This document shows positions 8,510-17,107 of a stretch of DNA of 64,000 nucleotides, piece after piece. Under the pieces are notes generated by a model. It saw nothing but the letters and a program-made list of their open reading frames with translations. It had not been told where the DNA came from and did no database searches. The translations under genes were made by a program, and so were the position numbers. The first letter of the stretch is position 1; the number at the start of each line of letters is the position of its first letter. Source of the DNA: Nitrospira sp. (GTDB lineage Bacteria > Nitrospirota > Nitrospiria > Nitrospirales > Nitrospiraceae); NCBI GenBank assembly GCA_019636835.1, contig JAHBWU010000010.1:1-64000 (forward strand), given 5' to 3'.

Positions 8510-10402
8510 ATGTTTCCAGTACGGTGGCGCACGCCCCAAGCGAGATTTGTTACCATAGGCCAGGCATTGATCCCAACAAAACCGTTCAATCGTAGGGGAC
8601 ATGCGGCAGGGGCATGGATCGGATGCGCGCTCCTCTTTCTTGCCGCTTGCGTCAAACCTCTGGAATTTCCTCCGCTGGGGGACCCGTTACCCGCCAGTGC
8701 CAAGCTTGAAATTTCCCCATCGATCAAAGAACTGACGATTCGTTACAGCGATTCCTGCGGCCAGCTCCAGGAAATTCCGCTGGGAGATCGAATCCAAGAG
8801 GCCTTACAGGAAGGCATTCATCGAACGTTCAAAACGGCATTTGACGAAGGCACCAGCGACACCTCCCCGCCTGATTATGTCATTCAGGTCGACCTTGTTG
8901 ATTCATCGTTCGACATCAATAAGGGGGCATTGTATGACCGGGCCCCCGCCGTTTTACACCTCAACGCCATCGCTCGCATCCACGACCGAAGGGGAGCGTT
9001 GCTCCGTCAGACGGACATCAAGATCGCCCGTCAGGAGCGATTGCGGCTCGAACAGCTCTCGAAAAACTGCGACTATATGATCGAGCCCTTCGTCCGCGAC
9101 GCCGTCATCGATTTTGCGACACGTGTCTCTCTGAATGCCAGACTCGCTGCCGGTGGACAGGAACCCATTGCTTCGCTGGAGCAGAACCAGACGTCGGTCG
9201 GAAATGGGGGAACGTCTTCGGCTTCAACCTCGTCGGTTCTTCGATTCAAAGCCATGCTCCTCGATGAGAACAGTAATCTGATTTTTGAAGGCGGCGAGCA
9301 TGTGCGGGTTCGTGTCGATGTGGTCAATGCGGGAACACGCTCCGTTGAGAATGTGTCGGCTTCTCTCACCGGAACTCCGTCGATCATCGAGCAATTCCCT
9401 GCAGCGACGCTGCCGATCCAGTCACTACAAGCGGGCCAGACGAAATCCCTCGAGTTCATCGCCACTCTCCCTCCGACCAAACAGGCCCAACAAGCTGTGA
9501 TCCATGTTACAGTGGCCGAATCGGGAGGAGCCGCGGCGCCGCCCCAAACCCTTTCGTTGACCATTCAGCCGTCCGGTACCGGCACGGACGACGTGAACCA
9601 AATTCCCGCGCCGGCGTTGGGCTTTCAACAGCCTCAGACCTACCTCATCTCTATCGGGGTCGGTTCCTATCGAGATACCAAGCTCACACCCCGCCGCTAC
9701 GCCGCAACGGATGCGGAGACCGTCGCCGCCTATTTTCAGTCGCTTGGCGGCATACCCCCGTCGAATATCCGGCTGTTGCGAAACCAGAAGGCACTCCGTG
9801 CCGATATCAACGAAGTATTGTTCGGCTGGCTCCCACAACATGCGGACAAGAATGCCGTCGTGATCGTCTATTTTTCGGGACAAGCGATGGTGACGCCGAC
9901 CGGCGATATCTTGCTGGCTCTTTATGACGGAAGTGCGGCAGACTCGACCCGACTTTACCCACTCAATGATTTTGAGTCAGCCTTCGCCAGGCTCAAGGCC
10001 AAGCATGTCATCTTCTTGTTCGACGGGACGGTGTCCAGACTGCGCGGTGATGCCAAGGGAAAGACTGCTTCACCCCATTGGGAACTTGGTGGAGGGAACA
10101 GTCTCGCACTGATCGGGGGCGAAGACTTTACGAAGGGGCTGGAAGACGACCAACACCGCCACAGCCTATTCACCTACTACCTCTTGAAAGGACTCCGAGG
10201 CGAGGCCGATACCAACCGCAACGGGACAGTCACATTCGGAGAACTTGCCGGCTACGTGCGTCAAAAAGTCGCCTGGGCGGCAAAGTCACAGTTCAATCAG
10301 GAGCAACGCCCCTTGCTGCTTCCACCGCTCAAGCCGGACGACGCGGCCGGCTCGCTTGTCCTGACTGCCCTTCCTTCGCTCACCTCGTCGGAAGGGCCAT
10401 AA
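8510..10402 (+). CDS. lipoprotein with CARDB-like and inactive caspase-like (C14) domains
   Basis: Predicted lipoprotein of 630 residues (lipobox LAAC, Cys47). A TTG at 8567 would give a more normal signal peptide starting just before an Arg-Arg pair. Residues ~60-200 form an unrecognised domain, ~240-345 look like a CARDB-type beta domain, and ~375-600 like a caspase/metacaspase fold. The catalytic His position reads YFSGQ (Gln458 in place of His) and the catalytic Cys strand reads FDGTVSR (504-510) rather than D-x-C-H-S-G, so peptidase activity is not expected. An EF-hand loop D567-x-N-x-N-G-x-V-x-x-x-E578 follows. It may act as an envelope scaffold (inference). Confidence 0.72.
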   Translation: MFPVRWRTPQARFVTIGQALIPTKPFNRRGHAAGAWIGCALLFLAACVKPLEFPPLGDPLPASAKLEISPSIKELTIRYSDSCGQLQEIPLGDRIQEALQEGIHRTFKTAFDEGTSDTSPPDYVIQVDLVDSSFDINKGALYDRAPAVLHLNAIARIHDRRGALLRQTDIKIARQERLRLEQLSKNCDYMIEPFVRDAVIDFATRVSLNARLAAGGQEPIASLEQNQTSVGNGGTSSASTSSVLRFKAMLLDENSNLIFEGGEHVRVRVDVVNAGTRSVENVSASLTGTPSIIEQFPAATLPIQSLQAGQTKSLEFIATLPPTKQAQQAVIHVTVAESGGAAAPPQTLSLTIQPSGTGTDDVNQIPAPALGFQQPQTYLISIGVGSYRDTKLTPRRYAATDAETVAAYFQSLGGIPPSNIRLLRNQKALRADINEVLFGWLPQHADKNAVVIVYFSGQAMVTPTGDILLALYDGSAADSTRLYPLNDFESAFARLKAKHVIFLFDGTVSRLRGDAKGKTASPHWELGGGNSLALIGGEDFTKGLEDDQHRHSLFTYYLLKGLRGEADTNRNGTVTFGELAGYVRQKVAWAAKSQFNQEQRPLLLPPLKPDDAAGSLVLTALPSLTSSEGP

Positions 10403-10820
10403 TTCTCGCGATGCATAACGGTTCGGTGGCCAGTGGCTCAATGGCACCGCTCGCTGCCCTTTCCATGTTTGGCAGGCCAGTCATCATGGCAGAAATTCAA
10501 GCAATAGCCGTCGCCCTAATGAGGCAATACGCACGCCTCAAGGTTCATGTTTACAGGGACTATCAATTTGCGAGGGATTGGACCATTCCATCTGTATTTT
10601 TTTGTTACGTCGAGAATCGAACCGACTCTTGGATGTTCCAAAAATCAATCTGTCGTGCCAGGGTCAAAGCTTTGAGGGTATCGGTTGCCTGCTACGATTT
10701 GGATAGGGCACATCATCTATAAGCTACAAGCCCATACCCAGCGCGGGTGAAGAATTCTTTTCTTGCTGTCTGCCTTGCATGGTCATCGAGAGAATAATAG
10801 CTACACCGTTGCAGCAATGG
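10403..10820. other. 418-bp intergenic stretch, no gene recognised
   Basis: Lies between the convergent ends of the caspase-like lipoprotein gene and the kinase gene. It is more AT-rich than its flanks. No convincing reading frame, terminator or RNA was found. A T-arm-like segment near 10608-10630 does not extend to a full tRNA. Confidence 0.5.
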
Positions 10821-12743
10821 TCATAGCGCCTTCAGGGATGCTTCGGCAAGTTGTAGCTGGTGCCAACACCGTTCCAGAACCGGCATAAGGCGTGCTCGTG
10901 CAGCAGATATGTCAGATGACAGCCAGCGCAGTTGTTCAGGACCTTGTCGAAGAATGCTACTCAACCCTACCTGCTCGGCATCGAGCTCGCGATCGAGCTC
11001 GTCGATATCCGCCTGATTCACAGGTTCATTGGGATTGAAGCGAAAATTTTGCTCATGACCTTTTCGCCACTTGAGCAGTTCGCTGTTTAATTTTCGCCCA
11101 AACCCTGGTATGTCAATCCCGCCACGTTTAATATCCGCGGCTGTCTCGATCCCATAACTCGCCAGCATGGCGGTTCGGCTAGGCCCAATCCCCGGGATGT
11201 CTCCGCGATCTATTCGAAACCGGTCAAGATAGCGATCCAGTTGCCGCCCATGACGCTTCCCTTCCAGCTTTGCGATGCCCTGCTGCCTTTTCCTCGGCAG
11301 ATCCACCAACTGCCGTTTTGCTTTCTCCAGATCGTCTAACTTCCCACGGAATACCGACTGACTCGCTTCCCGCTTCCACCGAGCGATGGCATCTTCCCAT
11401 TCGTTCTTTGCTGTTGTGAGGACTCGCTCAGCCTGCAGCCGTTCTTCGCTTGATGCACGAGGCCATATAGCATAAGCAATAATCAACGCGGCGAGACCCC
11501 ACCAACCACTACCGCCCTTCGGATCAGCGTTGCATGCGGCAATGCCAAGAAGAACGATGGCGCAACCGATGAGCTTCCGGAATACATACGCAATCTTGCG
11601 GACAGATGAGACGGCGGTAAGCTGCCCAGGACGTTCTGATGGCAATGTAGGGTCCGGACCAGGCCCAGGGACTACAACAATCGTCTCCCAAAGAGCATCG
11701 ATATCGACAGTGCCAGTGAATCGATTGACAATAACTCGCTGTCCAAATAACCGAACGCCTGTCTTCTTTTCAACTGAGCACCAAGGACACGCAGGTAATG
11801 ACTGGAGGTAATGGTGCCATTTTGCAGAGCTGCAAACACGCAAGCTGTTCTCAAGTTGAACGAGGGCATCGATCCACTTCTCGGCCTTCGGACGCCCCCC
11901 ATGATTGCCTGCCCGCTCAAAGGTTCTAATAAACAGGTCAGAGATAGTCCTGCCCATGGTGTCCAACGGAATTGTTCCTGGTGGCCGTTCCATTTGATTC
12001 GCTTGGCGATCTGGTCCATACGCAAACCGGTTTTCGGCCACGGCTTTCTCAATCGGCATGTCCCCATGACCTAAAAAACGGCCAGCGAACGGATGCCGTC
12101 CCATATAGACGAGATGAAAGAGTAGAACCGCTAGGCCAAACATGTCGTGGTTGGGCGTTCGGATCAGGCCCCGCAACGGTTTGCCATGGAGTTCAGGTGC
12201 TGTAAACAATGGGACACCGACATCACAGGAAAATGCGGTCGCACCTTGGCCGACCTGGAATGAATCACAATCAATTAACATGACGGTGCCGTCAGGCCCG
12301 ACCAACAGATTGCCGTGATTGACGTCGCCGATCACGTGACCATGCTCATGAACCCTCGCGAAGGCTCGGGCGATGTTGGTTCCGACATGGACAAGGAATC
12401 GGAAATCGGTTTGAGGAAACGCATCGACCCGGCTTTTCGGACTGTACAGTTCATGAATGTCCCGCCTCGCGGCAATCCGAGGCATGACAAACCCGCGCAG
12501 CTTTTGGTAAGCATCGATCAACAGATCAATGGGCCAGGCGGCAATCTTCAACAAGGTAGGAGTCGACGTGCCTACCATCATTGTAAGTTTTTGGACCTTC
12601 TTGGGCTCGAGCTCTTTCAGGTATAGCTTCGCGACGCGGTCAGGACTTTCTGGGAGGGCAAAGATAACACCCTCACCTCCCCGACCAATTTCTTGTCCAA
12701 GGACCACGGTGACCCCTGAGCGGGCCAATCTGAGCTTTGTCAT
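10821..12743 (-). CDS. Ser/Thr kinase-like protein with membrane segments and helix-hairpin-helix domain
   Basis: 640-residue kinase of a VWA/PP2C/kinase triad. The N-terminal kinase domain has a Gly-rich loop GRGGEGVIF (~20-28), a Lys in RVAKLY, a catalytic loop HVIGDVNHGNLLV and a metal-binding IDCDSFQV in place of DFG, as in this kinase subfamily. A CPWC pair near residue 320 may be half of a zinc site. Two hydrophobic segments (~390-430) suggest membrane anchoring. A Lys/Arg-rich coiled region leads to HhH motifs IPGIGPSRT and IPGFGRK (~520-555), usually DNA- or protein-binding. Its start overlaps the phosphatase stop (ATGA). Targets are unknown. Confidence 0.8.
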   Translation of the reverse strand: MTKLRLARSGVTVVLGQEIGRGGEGVIFALPESPDRVAKLYLKELEPKKVQKLTMMVGTSTPTLLKIAAWPIDLLIDAYQKLRGFVMPRIAARRDIHELYSPKSRVDAFPQTDFRFLVHVGTNIARAFARVHEHGHVIGDVNHGNLLVGPDGTVMLIDCDSFQVGQGATAFSCDVGVPLFTAPELHGKPLRGLIRTPNHDMFGLAVLLFHLVYMGRHPFAGRFLGHGDMPIEKAVAENRFAYGPDRQANQMERPPGTIPLDTMGRTISDLFIRTFERAGNHGGRPKAEKWIDALVQLENSLRVCSSAKWHHYLQSLPACPWCSVEKKTGVRLFGQRVIVNRFTGTVDIDALWETIVVVPGPGPDPTLPSERPGQLTAVSSVRKIAYVFRKLIGCAIVLLGIAACNADPKGGSGWWGLAALIIAYAIWPRASSEERLQAERVLTTAKNEWEDAIARWKREASQSVFRGKLDDLEKAKRQLVDLPRKRQQGIAKLEGKRHGRQLDRYLDRFRIDRGDIPGIGPSRTAMLASYGIETAADIKRGGIDIPGFGRKLNSELLKWRKGHEQNFRFNPNEPVNQADIDELDRELDAEQVGLSSILRQGPEQLRWLSSDISAARARLMPVLERCWHQLQLAEASLKAL

Positions 12744-13507
12744 ATAGAAGCGCCCGTTGGTCGACGTGTTGCCAAAATGATGGATACATCGTCGTCGGTA
12801 CGGGAGGAGATTGGCTCGCTGGCGAGATAATCTTTCAATGAATCGGAGAAGGTTTTGATTTCGTCAGATCCCTGCTCGAGCACGAGGGATCGAAACATGC
12901 CATTAAAAAACGGCTGATGGACCGTCTGATCGGCATAGCGCAAGGCAAGACACTCGAGGCCGTCAGACATGAGAGCAAGATCTGTGATAGGCCCGGGAAA
13001 GCCCTCGACCTCAAGGCGTTGGGTTGCGGCCGGATCTGTAAGAAAAAAGGTGGTATTCGTGTATTCACCGCGCTGCGGCCAGAGAATCCAGGCCCACTCT
13101 TCATGGTCGCGCTTGACGACGATGACACCATCACCGATCTGTGCGGCAGCACCACCTTCATTGGTGAGAACGACAGCGAGGAGCGTGGAGGCATACTGAC
13201 GGATATCCTGTTGGTCCCGTTCCGCAACGGCGATAACTGCTTGGCGTGCTTCTCCGACCGCGTCCTGCACGAGAGATTTGAGATCAGTAGCTCCTTCGTT
13301 CAGAGACTTATGCAGGGAGGAAAGCACCGTGAGAACCGCTGTCTCAGCCCCGACCTCTCCGCGTACGGCTGACCCGGCTCCATCAGCGAGGGCTGCAATC
13401 AGGGTTCCATTGGCCAGGAGTTGTACGCCGAATCGGTCTTGACACGGGAGTCCGCTCTTCAGATGAGAACGCCCAGTGGCCCGCGCTGCAGCCCATCGCC
13501 ACACCAT
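12740..13507 (-). CDS. PP2C-family protein phosphatase
   Basis: Metal-dependent Ser/Thr phosphatase of 255 residues. Visible motifs are ADGAGSA (metal-binding Asp), QIGDGVIVV, LMSDGLE and C-terminal RTDDDVSII, in the order expected for PPM enzymes. The ATG at 13507 lies 4 bases after the VWA-gene stop; an upstream in-frame start (13618) would overlap the VWA gene and adds no PP2C sequence. It presumably opposes the kinase encoded directly downstream. Confidence 0.88.
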   Translation of the reverse strand: MVWRWAAARATGRSHLKSGLPCQDRFGVQLLANGTLIAALADGAGSAVRGEVGAETAVLTVLSSLHKSLNEGATDLKSLVQDAVGEARQAVIAVAERDQQDIRQYASTLLAVVLTNEGGAAAQIGDGVIVVKRDHEEWAWILWPQRGEYTNTTFFLTDPAATQRLEVEGFPGPITDLALMSDGLECLALRYADQTVHQPFFNGMFRSLVLEQGSDEIKTFSDSLKDYLASEPISSRTDDDVSIILATRRPTGASI

Positions 13508-13511
13508 AATC

Positions 13512-14189
13512 TCAGCCAGCGACGGCCCAGCCGTCCGGTGCGGTTGGATTAGCGAGCGGCACCTTATCTCCAGGTTGAGACCGGGAAATACTACCCAGAG
13601 AGTTCGAGAGCCAGACAAACAATTCTCTGAACGACAGACCTTTGAGCATTAGGGGTTCTCGCACGGCTATCTGTTTGAGCTTACCCATGTCTGCACCCTC
13701 CACACCGACCGCGTAGAACATAAAGTTCTTCGACATTTCGCCTTCTTTTAAGGCAGCAGTTGCAGCCGTTACTTCGTCGGTGGGCCCTCCATCGGTAATG
13801 AGGAAAATCCAGGGGCGGTAGTACCCGACACCGTTCGCCTTATACGTTGCTTTGCGATCACTGATCATTGAGATAGCTGTTTGAATGGCAGCTCCCATGG
13901 GGGTATCCGCATCGGCCACCAGCGTAGGAGGATGAAAGGTGTCTGCTGTAACGAAATGCTGGATAGTCTGTACTGGACCGAAGGTCACAATCGCCACCTC
14001 GACCCGCTTGGCAGCCATTGCATCGGAGCGCAATTCGTCCGCAAAGATTTCGAGACCCTTGTTTAGTTCAACAATCTTTGCACCTCGCATGGACGCTGAC
14101 GTGTCAAGGAGAAGAATGCATGGACAGCGTGGTTCCGGATTGTCAGCAAATTCAACACCACCAAACGGTACCTGATCAAGTGTGGACAT
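13512..14189 (-). CDS. VWA-domain protein, TerY-like
   Basis: Single von Willebrand A domain protein, 225 residues, cytoplasmic (no signal peptide). The MIDAS motif DTSAS is near residues 29-33, with the second metal loop Thr in DTPMG and the third Asp in [10 protein letters not shown], so the metal site is intact. A strong ribosome site AGGAGG precedes the ATG. First gene of the VWA-PP2C-kinase operon. In published comparative work such triads are called TerY-P and were proposed as phosphorylation switches; here no ter genes are adjacent. Confidence 0.85.
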
Positions 14190-14457
14190 AAGGAAAGCAC
14201 CTCCTGTAGAAGTATGGTGGGCAGATAGAGCCGCTAATGTACCGCATTTTAGTTGTAAGTTCTAATGTTCTGGAGAAGAGCATATACGGAGTCGGATCTT
14301 GAATTGTGGCATGGCGCAGGAATACCGTTCCAGCTTTGCCATCCGACATCTCCCGCACACGCCACGCCCTCCAACCGCAATTCCTATTGCCATCGGCTGA
14401 CGGACCACCGCCACTTTCTTACAAGTTCTTCTTACGCTGGAACCTGACTCCTCACGC
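14190..14457. other. divergent intergenic region between VWA operon and toxin-antitoxin pair
   Basis: Divergent control region of about 350 bp between the VWA gene and the antitoxin gene. Apart from the promoter/operator on its right edge (14458-14498) and the ribosome site of the VWA gene, no conserved gene or RNA is recognisable. Confidence 0.4.
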
Positions 14458-14498
14458 TTGACCTCCTAAAATGTCTGCTGTACCATTTGTACAATTTG
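14458..14498 (+). promoter_or_regulatory. toxin-antitoxin promoter with overlapping palindrome
   Basis: TTGACC (14458-14463), a 17-base spacer and TACCAT (14481-14486), followed immediately by the palindrome TTGTACAA (14487-14494) within a partly symmetric ATTTGTACAATT. The palindrome sits at the expected start point, a usual place for autoregulation by an antitoxin-toxin complex. Confidence 0.5.
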
Positions 14499-14540
14499 TT
14501 CAGTTAGGGTCTTCCGAGCCTCTTATTAAGGGAGAGCGCC

Positions 14541-14795
14541 ATGGCCCATCTGCCTGCCAGTAAAGCGAGACAGGGATTTGCGGATACGATCAACCGTGCA
14601 GCATACGGGAAAGAGCGTGTCGTGGTGCGTCGAAGGGGAAAAGACATCGCCGCTGTGGTGCCGATTGATGATTTGCGGCTACTCGAAGAATTGGAAGATC
14701 GGATCGACCTCGCCGACGCACGGGCCGCTCTGGCTGAGACGAAGAAAAAGGGAGCAAAATCACTCGATGTGATTCTGAAAGACCTTGGCCTTTAG
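14541..14795 (+). CDS. antitoxin, Phd/YefM family
   Basis: 84-residue antitoxin. The N-terminus (LPASKARQGFADTINRA) matches the Phd/YefM DNA-binding fold, followed by VVVRRRGKDIAAVVPIDD and an acidic helical C-terminus that would wrap the toxin. It should neutralise the RelE-type toxin encoded 9 bases downstream and repress the shared promoter. Confidence 0.9.
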   Translation: MAHLPASKARQGFADTINRAAYGKERVVVRRRGKDIAAVVPIDDLRLLEELEDRIDLADARAALAETKKKGAKSLDVILKDLGL

Positions 14796-14804
14796 TCCTT
14801 CCCG

Positions 14805-15062
14805 ATGGCCTACTCAATCCTCCTCGCCCCGCCCGCCGAACGTCAACTCAAGTCTCTTACCGACTCGATTCAGAAACGCATCGTCAAACGGCTCAAGTCA
14901 CTCCGTGAAAATCCGCGGCCGCAGGGCGTGAAGAAACTGGTCGGAGAAGAGGACCTCTATCGAATCCGAGAAGGTGATTACCGGATCATCTACACGATTC
15001 AAGATAAGGAGCTCATAGTCCTCATCGTCAAGATCGGCGACCGCAAAGAAGTTTACCGCTGA
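14805..15062 (+). CDS. RelE/ParE-family toxin
   Basis: 85-residue toxin of the RelE superfamily. It starts with a beta strand and a basic helix pair (AERQLKSLTDSIQKRIVKRLKSL), then the core LVGEEDLYRIREGDYRIIYTI and the end strand IVLIVKIGDRKEVYR, with the Arg and Tyr residues common in ribosome-dependent RelE mRNA interferases. Expected to cleave mRNA when the antitoxin is degraded; activity untested. Confidence 0.9.
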   Translation: MAYSILLAPPAERQLKSLTDSIQKRIVKRLKSLRENPRPQGVKKLVGEEDLYRIREGDYRIIYTIQDKELIVLIVKIGDRKEVYR

Positions 15063-15169
15063 GAAGAGAGCCACGCCCGTCAGCCTCTTCTTCTCCACCA
15101 GCATCCGTGTGAACCACTATGCTGACGTCTTGCCCTCATTCCAACCTATCGTCGCTTCGCGCCAAAAAA

Positions 15170-15199
15170 GGAGGGTGGGGAGTTGCCTCCCCACCCTCC
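15170..15199 (-). terminator. intrinsic terminator of the PPC-like protein gene
   Basis: A perfect 13-bp stem GGAGGGTGGGGAG/CTCCCCACCCTCC with TTGC loop, flanked on the minus strand by a run of six T. It also lies after the toxin gene on the plus strand, but lacks a U-tract in that direction. Nearly the same hairpin recurs at 17402-17434. Confidence 0.9.
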
Positions 15200-15219
15200 T
15201 TCGACCTGTAACCATCTCA

Positions 15220-15243
15220 GCAGAAGCGATGGCTCGCTTCTGC
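15220..15243. repeat. 10-bp hairpin after the PPC-like gene
   Basis: Perfect inverted repeat GCAGAAGCGA-TGGC-TCGCTTCTGC between the gene stop (15257) and the terminator. No T-run follows. It may block 3' exonucleases on the minus-strand transcript (inference). Confidence 0.6.
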
Positions 15244-15256
15244 AGAAACTCCGCTC

Positions 15257-17107
15257 CTATTGACTACTCACCTGTAGTTGAATACTGCCCGTCTCAGACA
15301 ACGCAGGATTTACTGTGACTGTGTACGTGTCTGCTGAAGCCAGTGTGACTGGGTTAAGAGTGAAGCTTGATTCGGAGCTCGTCATCCCGGCTTGCAGGAT
15401 GCCATTCGGGCTATAGAGATTGACGGTCACGCTGCCGAGCTTATTGTTGGTGACCTTGATCGTGGCTAGTTGATTCGCGGTGCCTGTAAACGTATAGCGT
15501 CCATTTTGGCCCGCGCGGCTGACCGTGATCGGCCTTGGCCCCGCATTCATCTTTAATGAATCCGCAACCTCGGTCGAGAGAGTCAAGGTCATTTTCCCGG
15601 TGTAGCTACCGACAGGATCGACGAGAATCGTATATGTGCCGGTGGTCGGCAAGGGGTTTTGATCTTCGAGACCCCCACCGGCCGTACCCACACCCGTTGA
15701 GGCAAGGATGATCCCATCCGATGTCATAAGCGTGACCGCACTGGATGTAATACTCACGGACGAAAGCCCGAGATTCACCCATTGCCCAGCGTTGCCATTG
15801 AACGTATAGCGCGCCGTCTGGCCCACCCTGTTCAGATTAACCGGCACCGAGGCTCCATCGAGTGCGATCGTACCCGTGACGGGAGAAGAAAGGGCGAGCG
15901 TCATACTGCCGGTATAGTTACTAACCGGTTCCACCGCGATGGTGTAAGTCCCTGTTGCGGGCAGAGCCGTCAAGGGATCGAGACTGCCGCCACTTGGACC
16001 GATTGTGGTCGATTCCCATTTACTGCCATCCGGTTTCAGGATGGCCACAGTCGTCATGGGAATTGTCACCCCGGTAAGCCCGAGATTCACCCATTGCCCC
16101 TCCGTCCCGCTGAATGTATAGCGCGCCCGTTGACCCGGCACTGTTAGGGTCGATGTCACAGTCCCTTGATCGATCACGATGCTCCCGGTCAGTTCCGGAG
16201 CATTATAAAGCGCCAGCTTGACCCTCCCGGTGTAACTCAGATCCGATTCAACCAAGACAGCATAGGTTCCCGAAGCCGGAAGGACCTGGCCCGGAATCAT
16301 AGTACCCACCGCACCACCCCCAGAGACAAATGAGATCGGCTTGCCTAACAAACTTCCATCCGGAGCAACAATCGAGACGTACCCGCTTCGGATTGTCACC
16401 TCGCTCAACTGTAAACTCACCGTTTTGCCGCTTTCTCCCGAGAATGTATAACGGGCCTTCTGCCCGGTCCGATTGATATTGGCCGTTACAGCTGAACCGT
16501 GAGGGACAAGATCACCACTGAGCTCGTTTGAAAGCGTGAGCTTGAAACTCCCCGTATACGTAACGTCCGGGTCGATGAAAATTGTATAGGCCCCTGTTAC
16601 CGGCAGTACTTCAAGATCAACGCTAGCGCCGTTCATCTCGCTGGAAGAGATCGCGGCAGCCGAATCGGTCGAAAACTGGTAGGCTGCCATGTCTGTATGC
16701 ACTTTTGTCTGTGAGGAGAGTGGCCGCTCGCCCATCGTCGCATAATAGTTCCTCACTGCGGAGACATGTCGGGGCATCACCCCGCCATCCGGCCGATAGA
16801 CTGACACGTGAAACTGTGTGAGGGTGACACCGCTGAAGCCGATATTGATCCGCTGGCCGGCTGTGCCGTCGAAGACCACCACGCCATTCTTATTCGGAGT
16901 GGCAATTTTCACCGTGACCGGGTCACCGTTGACAGCAATACGACCATTGTATTCGATATCCGCTGCCGCGACGCCTGGCGGTAGGGCAGTATCTCCGGCA
17001 TAACTCCTGTCACTGGTAATACTGGAAATGAGTCCCGCTGAGCCAAGCACAAGCGTGATCATTGCTACTCGTACTCGGCACTTCACCCACGGCCATAGGC
17101 TGTACAT
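15257..17107 (-). CDS. secreted protein of tandem PPC-like beta domains
   Basis: 616-residue exported protein; signal peptide ends near residue 37 (RSYAGD). The rest is about five repeats of ~100 residues, each with a core like GQxARYTFxGxxGQWVNLGLxxV, then a YxPDG-like turn and an end such as LPxTGTYTIxVxPxxxYTGxMTLxLS. This is the pattern of bacterial pre-peptidase C-terminal (PPC) domains, but no peptidase is attached. Repeats 3 and 4 (~315-505) are most alike, suggesting recent internal duplication. GGAGGG precedes the ATG. Possible surface adhesion or binding role; unknown. Confidence 0.75.
   Translation of the reverse strand: MYSLWPWVKCRVRVAMITLVLGSAGLISSITSDRSYAGDTALPPGVAAADIEYNGRIAVNGDPVTVKIATPNKNGVVVFDGTAGQRINIGFSGVTLTQFHVSVYRPDGGVMPRHVSAVRNYYATMGERPLSSQTKVHTDMAAYQFSTDSAAAISSSEMNGASVDLEVLPVTGAYTIFIDPDVTYTGSFKLTLSNELSGDLVPHGSAVTANINRTGQKARYTFSGESGKTVSLQLSEVTIRSGYVSIVAPDGSLLGKPISFVSGGGAVGTMIPGQVLPASGTYAVLVESDLSYTGRVKLALYNAPELTGSIVIDQGTVTSTLTVPGQRARYTFSGTEGQWVNLGLTGVTIPMTTVAILKPDGSKWESTTIGPSGGSLDPLTALPATGTYTIAVEPVSNYTGSMTLALSSPVTGTIALDGASVPVNLNRVGQTARYTFNGNAGQWVNLGLSSVSITSSAVTLMTSDGIILASTGVGTAGGGLEDQNPLPTTGTYTILVDPVGSYTGKMTLTLSTEVADSLKMNAGPRPITVSRAGQNGRYTFTGTANQLATIKVTNNKLGSVTVNLYSPNGILQAGMTSSESSFTLNPVTLASADTYTVTVNPALSETGSIQLQVSSQ

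Follow-up and report, generated by a model that had tools for sequence, protein, structure and literature searches.

In Escherichia coli, according to literature cited in PMC13232886, YegI is a membrane-bound, autophosphorylating Ser/Thr kinase that is dephosphorylated by the phosphatase PphC (YegK), and the conditions that promote expression of the two proteins were left undefined. A broader parallel is the TerY-P triad of ter plasmids, type II/III-A CoCoNuTs and stand-alone loci, which also combines a VWA protein, a PP2C phosphatase and a kinase with cysteines after its kinase domain. TerY-P triads, whose kinases have C-termini other than the one described below, protect against phages (PMC7699616, PMC10889362, PMC11090510). 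Protection is likewise conferred by the prophage kinase-phosphatase module KKP (PfkA-PfkB-PfpC, Pf prophages), in which the PP2C-like PfpC keeps toxic kinases in check; when a phage replication protein inhibits PfpC, infection is blocked (PMC11341870).

Here we analyse a VWA-PP2C-kinase triad in Nitrospira sp. The window, meaning the whole stretch of DNA that was analysed (64,000 nucleotides), belongs to a MAG (G000) of 3.85 Mb that is 88% complete. Handles beginning with L and G denote our loci or contigs and genomes.

The triad and its E. coli counterpart

The triad and its parts lie as follows.

14200-14205, minus strand: ribosome-binding site AGGAGG, 5′ of the VWA gene, read from the sequence
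13512-14189, minus strand: VWA gene, YegL/COG4245-like, 225 aa (Pfam VWA PF00092, E 8e-11)
12740-13507, minus strand: PP2C gene, PphC/YegK-like Ser/Thr phosphatase, 255 aa from the ATG at 13507 (PP2C_2 PF13672, E 1e-51)
10821-12743, minus strand: kinase gene, YegI/COG4248-like, predicted to be membrane-anchored, 640 aa (Pkinase PF00069, E 4e-7, a score just below the curated cut-off)
11835-12728, minus strand: kinase domain, residues about 6-303
11778-11834, minus strand: putative zinc knuckle C304/H310/C319/C322
11460-11594, minus strand: two predicted membrane segments, residues 384-428 (hydropathy 2.0 and 1.07)
11049-11213, minus strand: C-terminal helix-hairpin-helix (HhH) region, residues 511-565

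Judged by sequence, the triad is a full-length homologue set of E. coli K-12 yegL-pphC-yegI that agrees with it in order, homology and architecture. The three proteins match their E. coli counterparts nearly end to end (E-values of 8e-118, 6e-40 and 6e-86), with identities of 59% over 217 aa for the VWA protein and YegL, 34% for the phosphatase and PphC/YegK, and 34% end to end for the kinase and YegI. The same three proteins occur in the same order on one strand, and the zinc-knuckle, membrane and HhH regions align. The loci differ in that K-12 has yegJ inserted between pphC and yegI, in that YegI lacks the N145 present in the window kinase, and in that the E. coli locus is species-core whereas the Nitrospira triad is accessory. 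The initial annotation had recognised a metal-binding VWA protein, a phosphatase and a kinase, which the Pfam matches, the metal site and the kinase fold bear out, but its suggestion of a possibly uncharacterised system gives way to homology with one that is partly characterised. Because of this match, the combination of kinase, membrane segments and HhH region counts as an architecture already known (COG4248).

The gene layout depends on where the phosphatase begins. Alignment with 10 homologues places its start at the ATG at 13507; a longer reading frame that opens with the TTG at 13618 is less probable, as the homologues begin at the ATG, and the stop of the VWA gene is therefore separated from the phosphatase start by a gap of 4 nt. 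The phosphatase and kinase genes overlap by 4 nt, the sole overlap in the triad. Of the three overlapping genes first described, this pair stands, whereas an overlap of the VWA and phosphatase genes would need the upstream TTG. The 4-nt gap and 4-nt overlap give the triad the look of a tight, same-strand and translationally coupled operon. Promoter and terminator scans at the triad scored no better than on shuffled sequence, and the GC profile did not reveal a sharp island.

The VWA protein has a complete MIDAS (D29-x-S31-x-S33, T96, D133) that is invariant in homologues. The kinase retains a glycine loop, K39, D140, N145 and D158, but reads DCD where DFG is canonical; N145 is not conserved across the family. 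Its AlphaFold model has a mean pLDDT of 90.6 and matches solved kinases with a VIA Z of about 20, and at the level of the model the kinase fold is thereby confirmed; for the C-terminal half that structure search is not very informative, since its matches are mostly kinase domains. Directly after the kinase domain, the C304/H310/C319/C322 columns are invariant in 42 homologues, and C304, C319 and C322 are invariant even in 8 divergent kinases, including those of ter-plasmid, phage and divergent Nitrospira triads. This set is probably a zinc knuckle, of which the CXXC pair noted earlier (C319, C322) is one half.

Two hydrophobic segments follow (residues 384-406 and 410-428), modelled as helices 378-406 and 412-426. 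They probably form a hairpin, which would put the kinase domain and the HhH region on one face of the membrane. After the hairpin come a helical part, the HhH region and a long C-terminal helix, and past residue 347 the model contains helices only (the membrane pair, the HhH region and the long helix) and no beta barrel. The membrane segments and CXXC pair of the initial annotation thus hold, while its HhH motifs are weak in the window protein alone (HHH_5, E 0.007) and recurrent in homologues (13 of 42, best E 9e-6).

This architecture also separates the triad from TerY-P, whose kinase ends in an OB-fold (PMC11090510), whereas the modelled window kinase ends in a membrane hairpin and HhH region with no OB-fold and is just 23% identical to the ter-plasmid kinase. 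An association with ter genes was rejected, as TerD (PF02342) had no match in the 88%-complete window genome; the same search was positive in 2 of 14 control genomes. The triad had been observed to lack adjacent ter or restriction genes, and this agrees with the missing TerD match and with the lack of adjacent CoCoNuT or restriction genes. The likeness to TerY-P proposed at the outset is sound at the superfamily level (three components, a kinase plus zinc-knuckle core), but it overlooked how exactly the triad matches YegL-PphC-YegI. KKP resembles the triad in setting a kinase against a PP2C-like phosphatase and in being prophage cargo (PMC11341870); it differs in its two kinases, which bear CSD and FHA domains, and in lacking a VWA protein, and the likeness is one of functional analogy.

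Distribution and phage-borne copies

A scan of genome contigs gave at least 505 relatives, of which 80 were kept; adding loci from plasmids, E. coli and viruses brings the number examined to 94. The VWA-PP2C-kinase order is kept in 88 of them, and some of the remaining six are truncated where their contig stops. Among the hosts are Pseudomonadota, Acidobacteriota, Bacillota, Synergistota, Chloroflexota, Chlamydiota, Armatimonadota and Cyanobacteriota, together with one methanogen (archaeal) MAG. The locus is present in 5366 of 5426 complete E. coli genomes (98.9%), and the triad occurs on 38 plasmids. Within the genus of the window it is found in 1 of 79 genomes, so that the Nitrospira copy was probably acquired horizontally. 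In a quick tree its nearest kin are from Acidobacteriota, Tectimicrobiota and a Pseudomonadota prophage; with phyla mixed in this way, the tree does not follow hosts. A divergent triad, with a VWA protein of 34-36% identity, is present in two further genomes of the genus (G054 and G195; loci L003, L014, L128 and L129), and the L014 kinase has what by eye appear to be ankyrin-like repeats.

Several neighbours recur in particular host groups. A TetR-type regulator gene lies directly 3′ of the kinase gene on the same strand in 20 loci (L056 and related Competibacteraceae), and a gene of unknown function recurs in 10. Both look largely Competibacteraceae-specific and are absent at the window locus, and they were set aside as partners. 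His-Xaa-Ser (Hxs) radical-SAM genes recur near Rhizobiales plasmid triads, with related genes near a Microvirga triad (L034, L036, L104).

Among the matches listed, the closest kinases (59-61%) are encoded on a viral contig (L119) and two MAG contigs (L043 and L039). L119 carries, in order, primase, terminase large subunit (phrog_15), Phd-like antitoxin, VWA, PP2C, kinase, portal (phrog_21) and head protein (phrog_4523) genes. L043, a bacterial MAG contig, has the end of a terminase gene, the same antitoxin gene as L119, and the triad. In both (L119:6253-9929, L043:345-3418) the antitoxin gene lies about 15 bp 5′ of the VWA gene, and a toxin partner was not recognised beside it. For the close relatives L039 and L040 the neighbours include transposase genes.

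More distant copies show a similar range of settings. In L174 a triad stands 3′ of terminase, portal, protease and capsid genes; this divergent triad (L174:7980-11418) is also accompanied by two DUF488-like ORFs, and the C-terminus of its kinase, read by eye and not by profile, resembles a formylglycine-generating-enzyme (FGE) domain. The L120 triad is near a terminase gene, and that of L122 adjoins an integrase gene. A 136 kb viral contig holds a short-kinase triad (L175:3222-6090; 451 aa, no HhH) beside two large phrog_877 genes of unknown function. Viral copies are rare, with six relatives found by kinase and seven by VWA in 2.9 million contigs, and none of the 50,697 phage records of the INPHARED set has the full-length kinase.

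Proposed function and rival readings

We consider it likely that the triad belongs to the YegL-PphC-YegI (COG4245-PP2C-COG4248) family, was gained by horizontal transfer and acts as a reversible Ser/Thr phosphorylation switch. End-to-end homology to E. coli, the E. coli biochemistry reported in PMC13232886, the conserved gene order, the intact MIDAS, PP2C motifs and kinase residues, the confident kinase model, the presence in 1 of 79 congeneric genomes between genus-conserved flank genes, and a tree that does not follow the hosts argue for this assignment, while the DCD in place of DFG, the family-wide variability of N145 and the weak HhH match in the window protein count against it. By homology to E. 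coli, the membrane-bound kinase would autophosphorylate and the phosphatase would reset it. The VWA protein, with metal bound at its MIDAS, probably tethers kinase and phosphatase in a complex or senses a ligand, and the likely role of the zinc knuckle and HhH tail is to recruit a target, either nucleic acid or protein, at the membrane. A stimulus would then favour the kinase over the phosphatase, and an unchecked kinase could, on the analogy of KKP, phosphorylate host proteins and slow or stop growth.

What such a switch is for can be read in two ways, which we regard as about level, and each of which falls somewhat short of even chances. Since both refine the purpose of the switch, the likelihoods given to the switch and to these readings need not sum to one. 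The first takes the triad as a stand-alone anti-phage module on the TerY-P or KKP pattern: a phage product would disable the phosphatase or engage the VWA/HhH part, the freed kinase would abort infection, and prophages would carry the triad to exclude competitors. The protection afforded by TerY-P triads and KKP favours it (PMC7699616, PMC10889362, PMC11341870), as do the position of the closest homologues (59-60% identity) between prophage terminase and portal genes in L119 and again in L043, the distant triad among the head genes of L174, and the copies by terminase (L120) or integrase (L122) and on plasmids. The TerY-P kinases that were assayed, however, end in an OB-fold (PMC11090510) and not in a membrane hairpin and HhH region, and in E. 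coli the locus is a near-universal chromosomal one.

The gene neighbourhoods count largely against the anti-phage reading. In a PADLOC survey of 53 dereplicated loci, we compared the 195 nearest genes with 128 distant genes from the same loci; hits were scattered near and far, the commonest near family occurring in 4 members and the commonest far family in 3, in a comparison that is qualitative and not a statistical test because PADLOC reports by family and not by gene, and because islands may extend beyond 10 kb. No consistent defence partner recurred beside the triads in this survey, although one plasmid triad abuts a HerA-DUF4297 defence pair. As the hits are similarly scattered near and far, an association with defence islands is not supported, and the enrichment that had been proposed as a check finds no support in these hits or in the near-universal E. 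coli locus. On the window triad PADLOC gave weak kinase cross-hits only, which is uninformative because a ter-plasmid triad drew none either. By analogy, an abortive, KKP-like role is plausible.

In the second reading the triad would take no part in phage defence and would instead signal envelope or nucleic-acid stress. To our knowledge, the E. coli triad has no known phenotype, stimulus, substrate or purpose. Its presence in nearly all E. coli genomes speaks for stress signalling, as do the predicted membrane location, the adjoining HSP70 gene yegD and nearby mdtABC efflux genes in E. coli, and the RND efflux genes that neighbour the triad in four alphaproteobacterial loci. Its sporadic occurrence elsewhere, as in a single genome of the Nitrospira genus, on the 38 plasmids and in prophages, is unusual for housekeeping signalling.

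A more specific proposal, which we think rather unlikely, is that triads are mobile cargo in the packaging and head operons of temperate phages, where they would block competitors, and that the Nitrospira copy represents one of these modules that stayed behind on the chromosome. The kinase and zinc-knuckle core would be shared, and the C-terminal output swapped (membrane plus HhH, FGE-like, ankyrin-like or none).

The Nitrospira locus and its neighbours

Two neighbours of the triad were considered as partners.

14541-15062, divergent from the triad: toxin-antitoxin pair (Phd/YefM PF02604, E 1e-11; ParE/RelE-superfamily PF05016, E 4e-15)
8510-10402, far-side flank: caspase-like (Peptidase_C14) gene

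The divergent neighbour, first described as RelBE-type, is indeed a toxin-antitoxin pair with a ParE/RelE-superfamily toxin, but its antitoxin is Phd/YefM and the pair is not RelBE proper. Three congeners have the Phd/ParE region at the same locus (79-86% DNA identity) without the triad, and the L149 antitoxin is 99% identical to that of the window. The pair is therefore an independent resident of the locus, unrelated to the triad, contrary to the link first drawn between them; the triad was probably inserted beside it. That the triad and the Phd/ParE pair form one functional locus, as their divergent adjacency and the different Phd-like gene about 15 bp 5′ of the VWA gene in phage L119 might suggest, is highly improbable, being largely refuted by those congeners and opposed by the just 23% identity between the L119 and window antitoxins.

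The caspase-like gene was rejected as a partner, as it has relatives in 57 of 59 congeneric genomes and the triad does not. Caspase-like and PPC-domain flank genes recur in the genus, often as neighbours with other material between them. The interval 10402-15257 between genus-conserved genes varies in content and length among congeners and may be an insertion hotspot. Segments 10564-10629 and 14291-14370, two short stretches that flank the triad and recur in congeners, were considered as candidate insertion borders; both are single-copy in the window genome at the sensitivity used.

The Nitrospira triad is thus known in kind, and the mobility of its family is the new observation. The prophage-borne mobile copies are the part worth following: full-length homologues that cross phyla and sit among prophage head and packaging genes offer a testable lead to the purpose of the E. 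coli triad, namely that the family may serve phage exclusion or lysogeny control.
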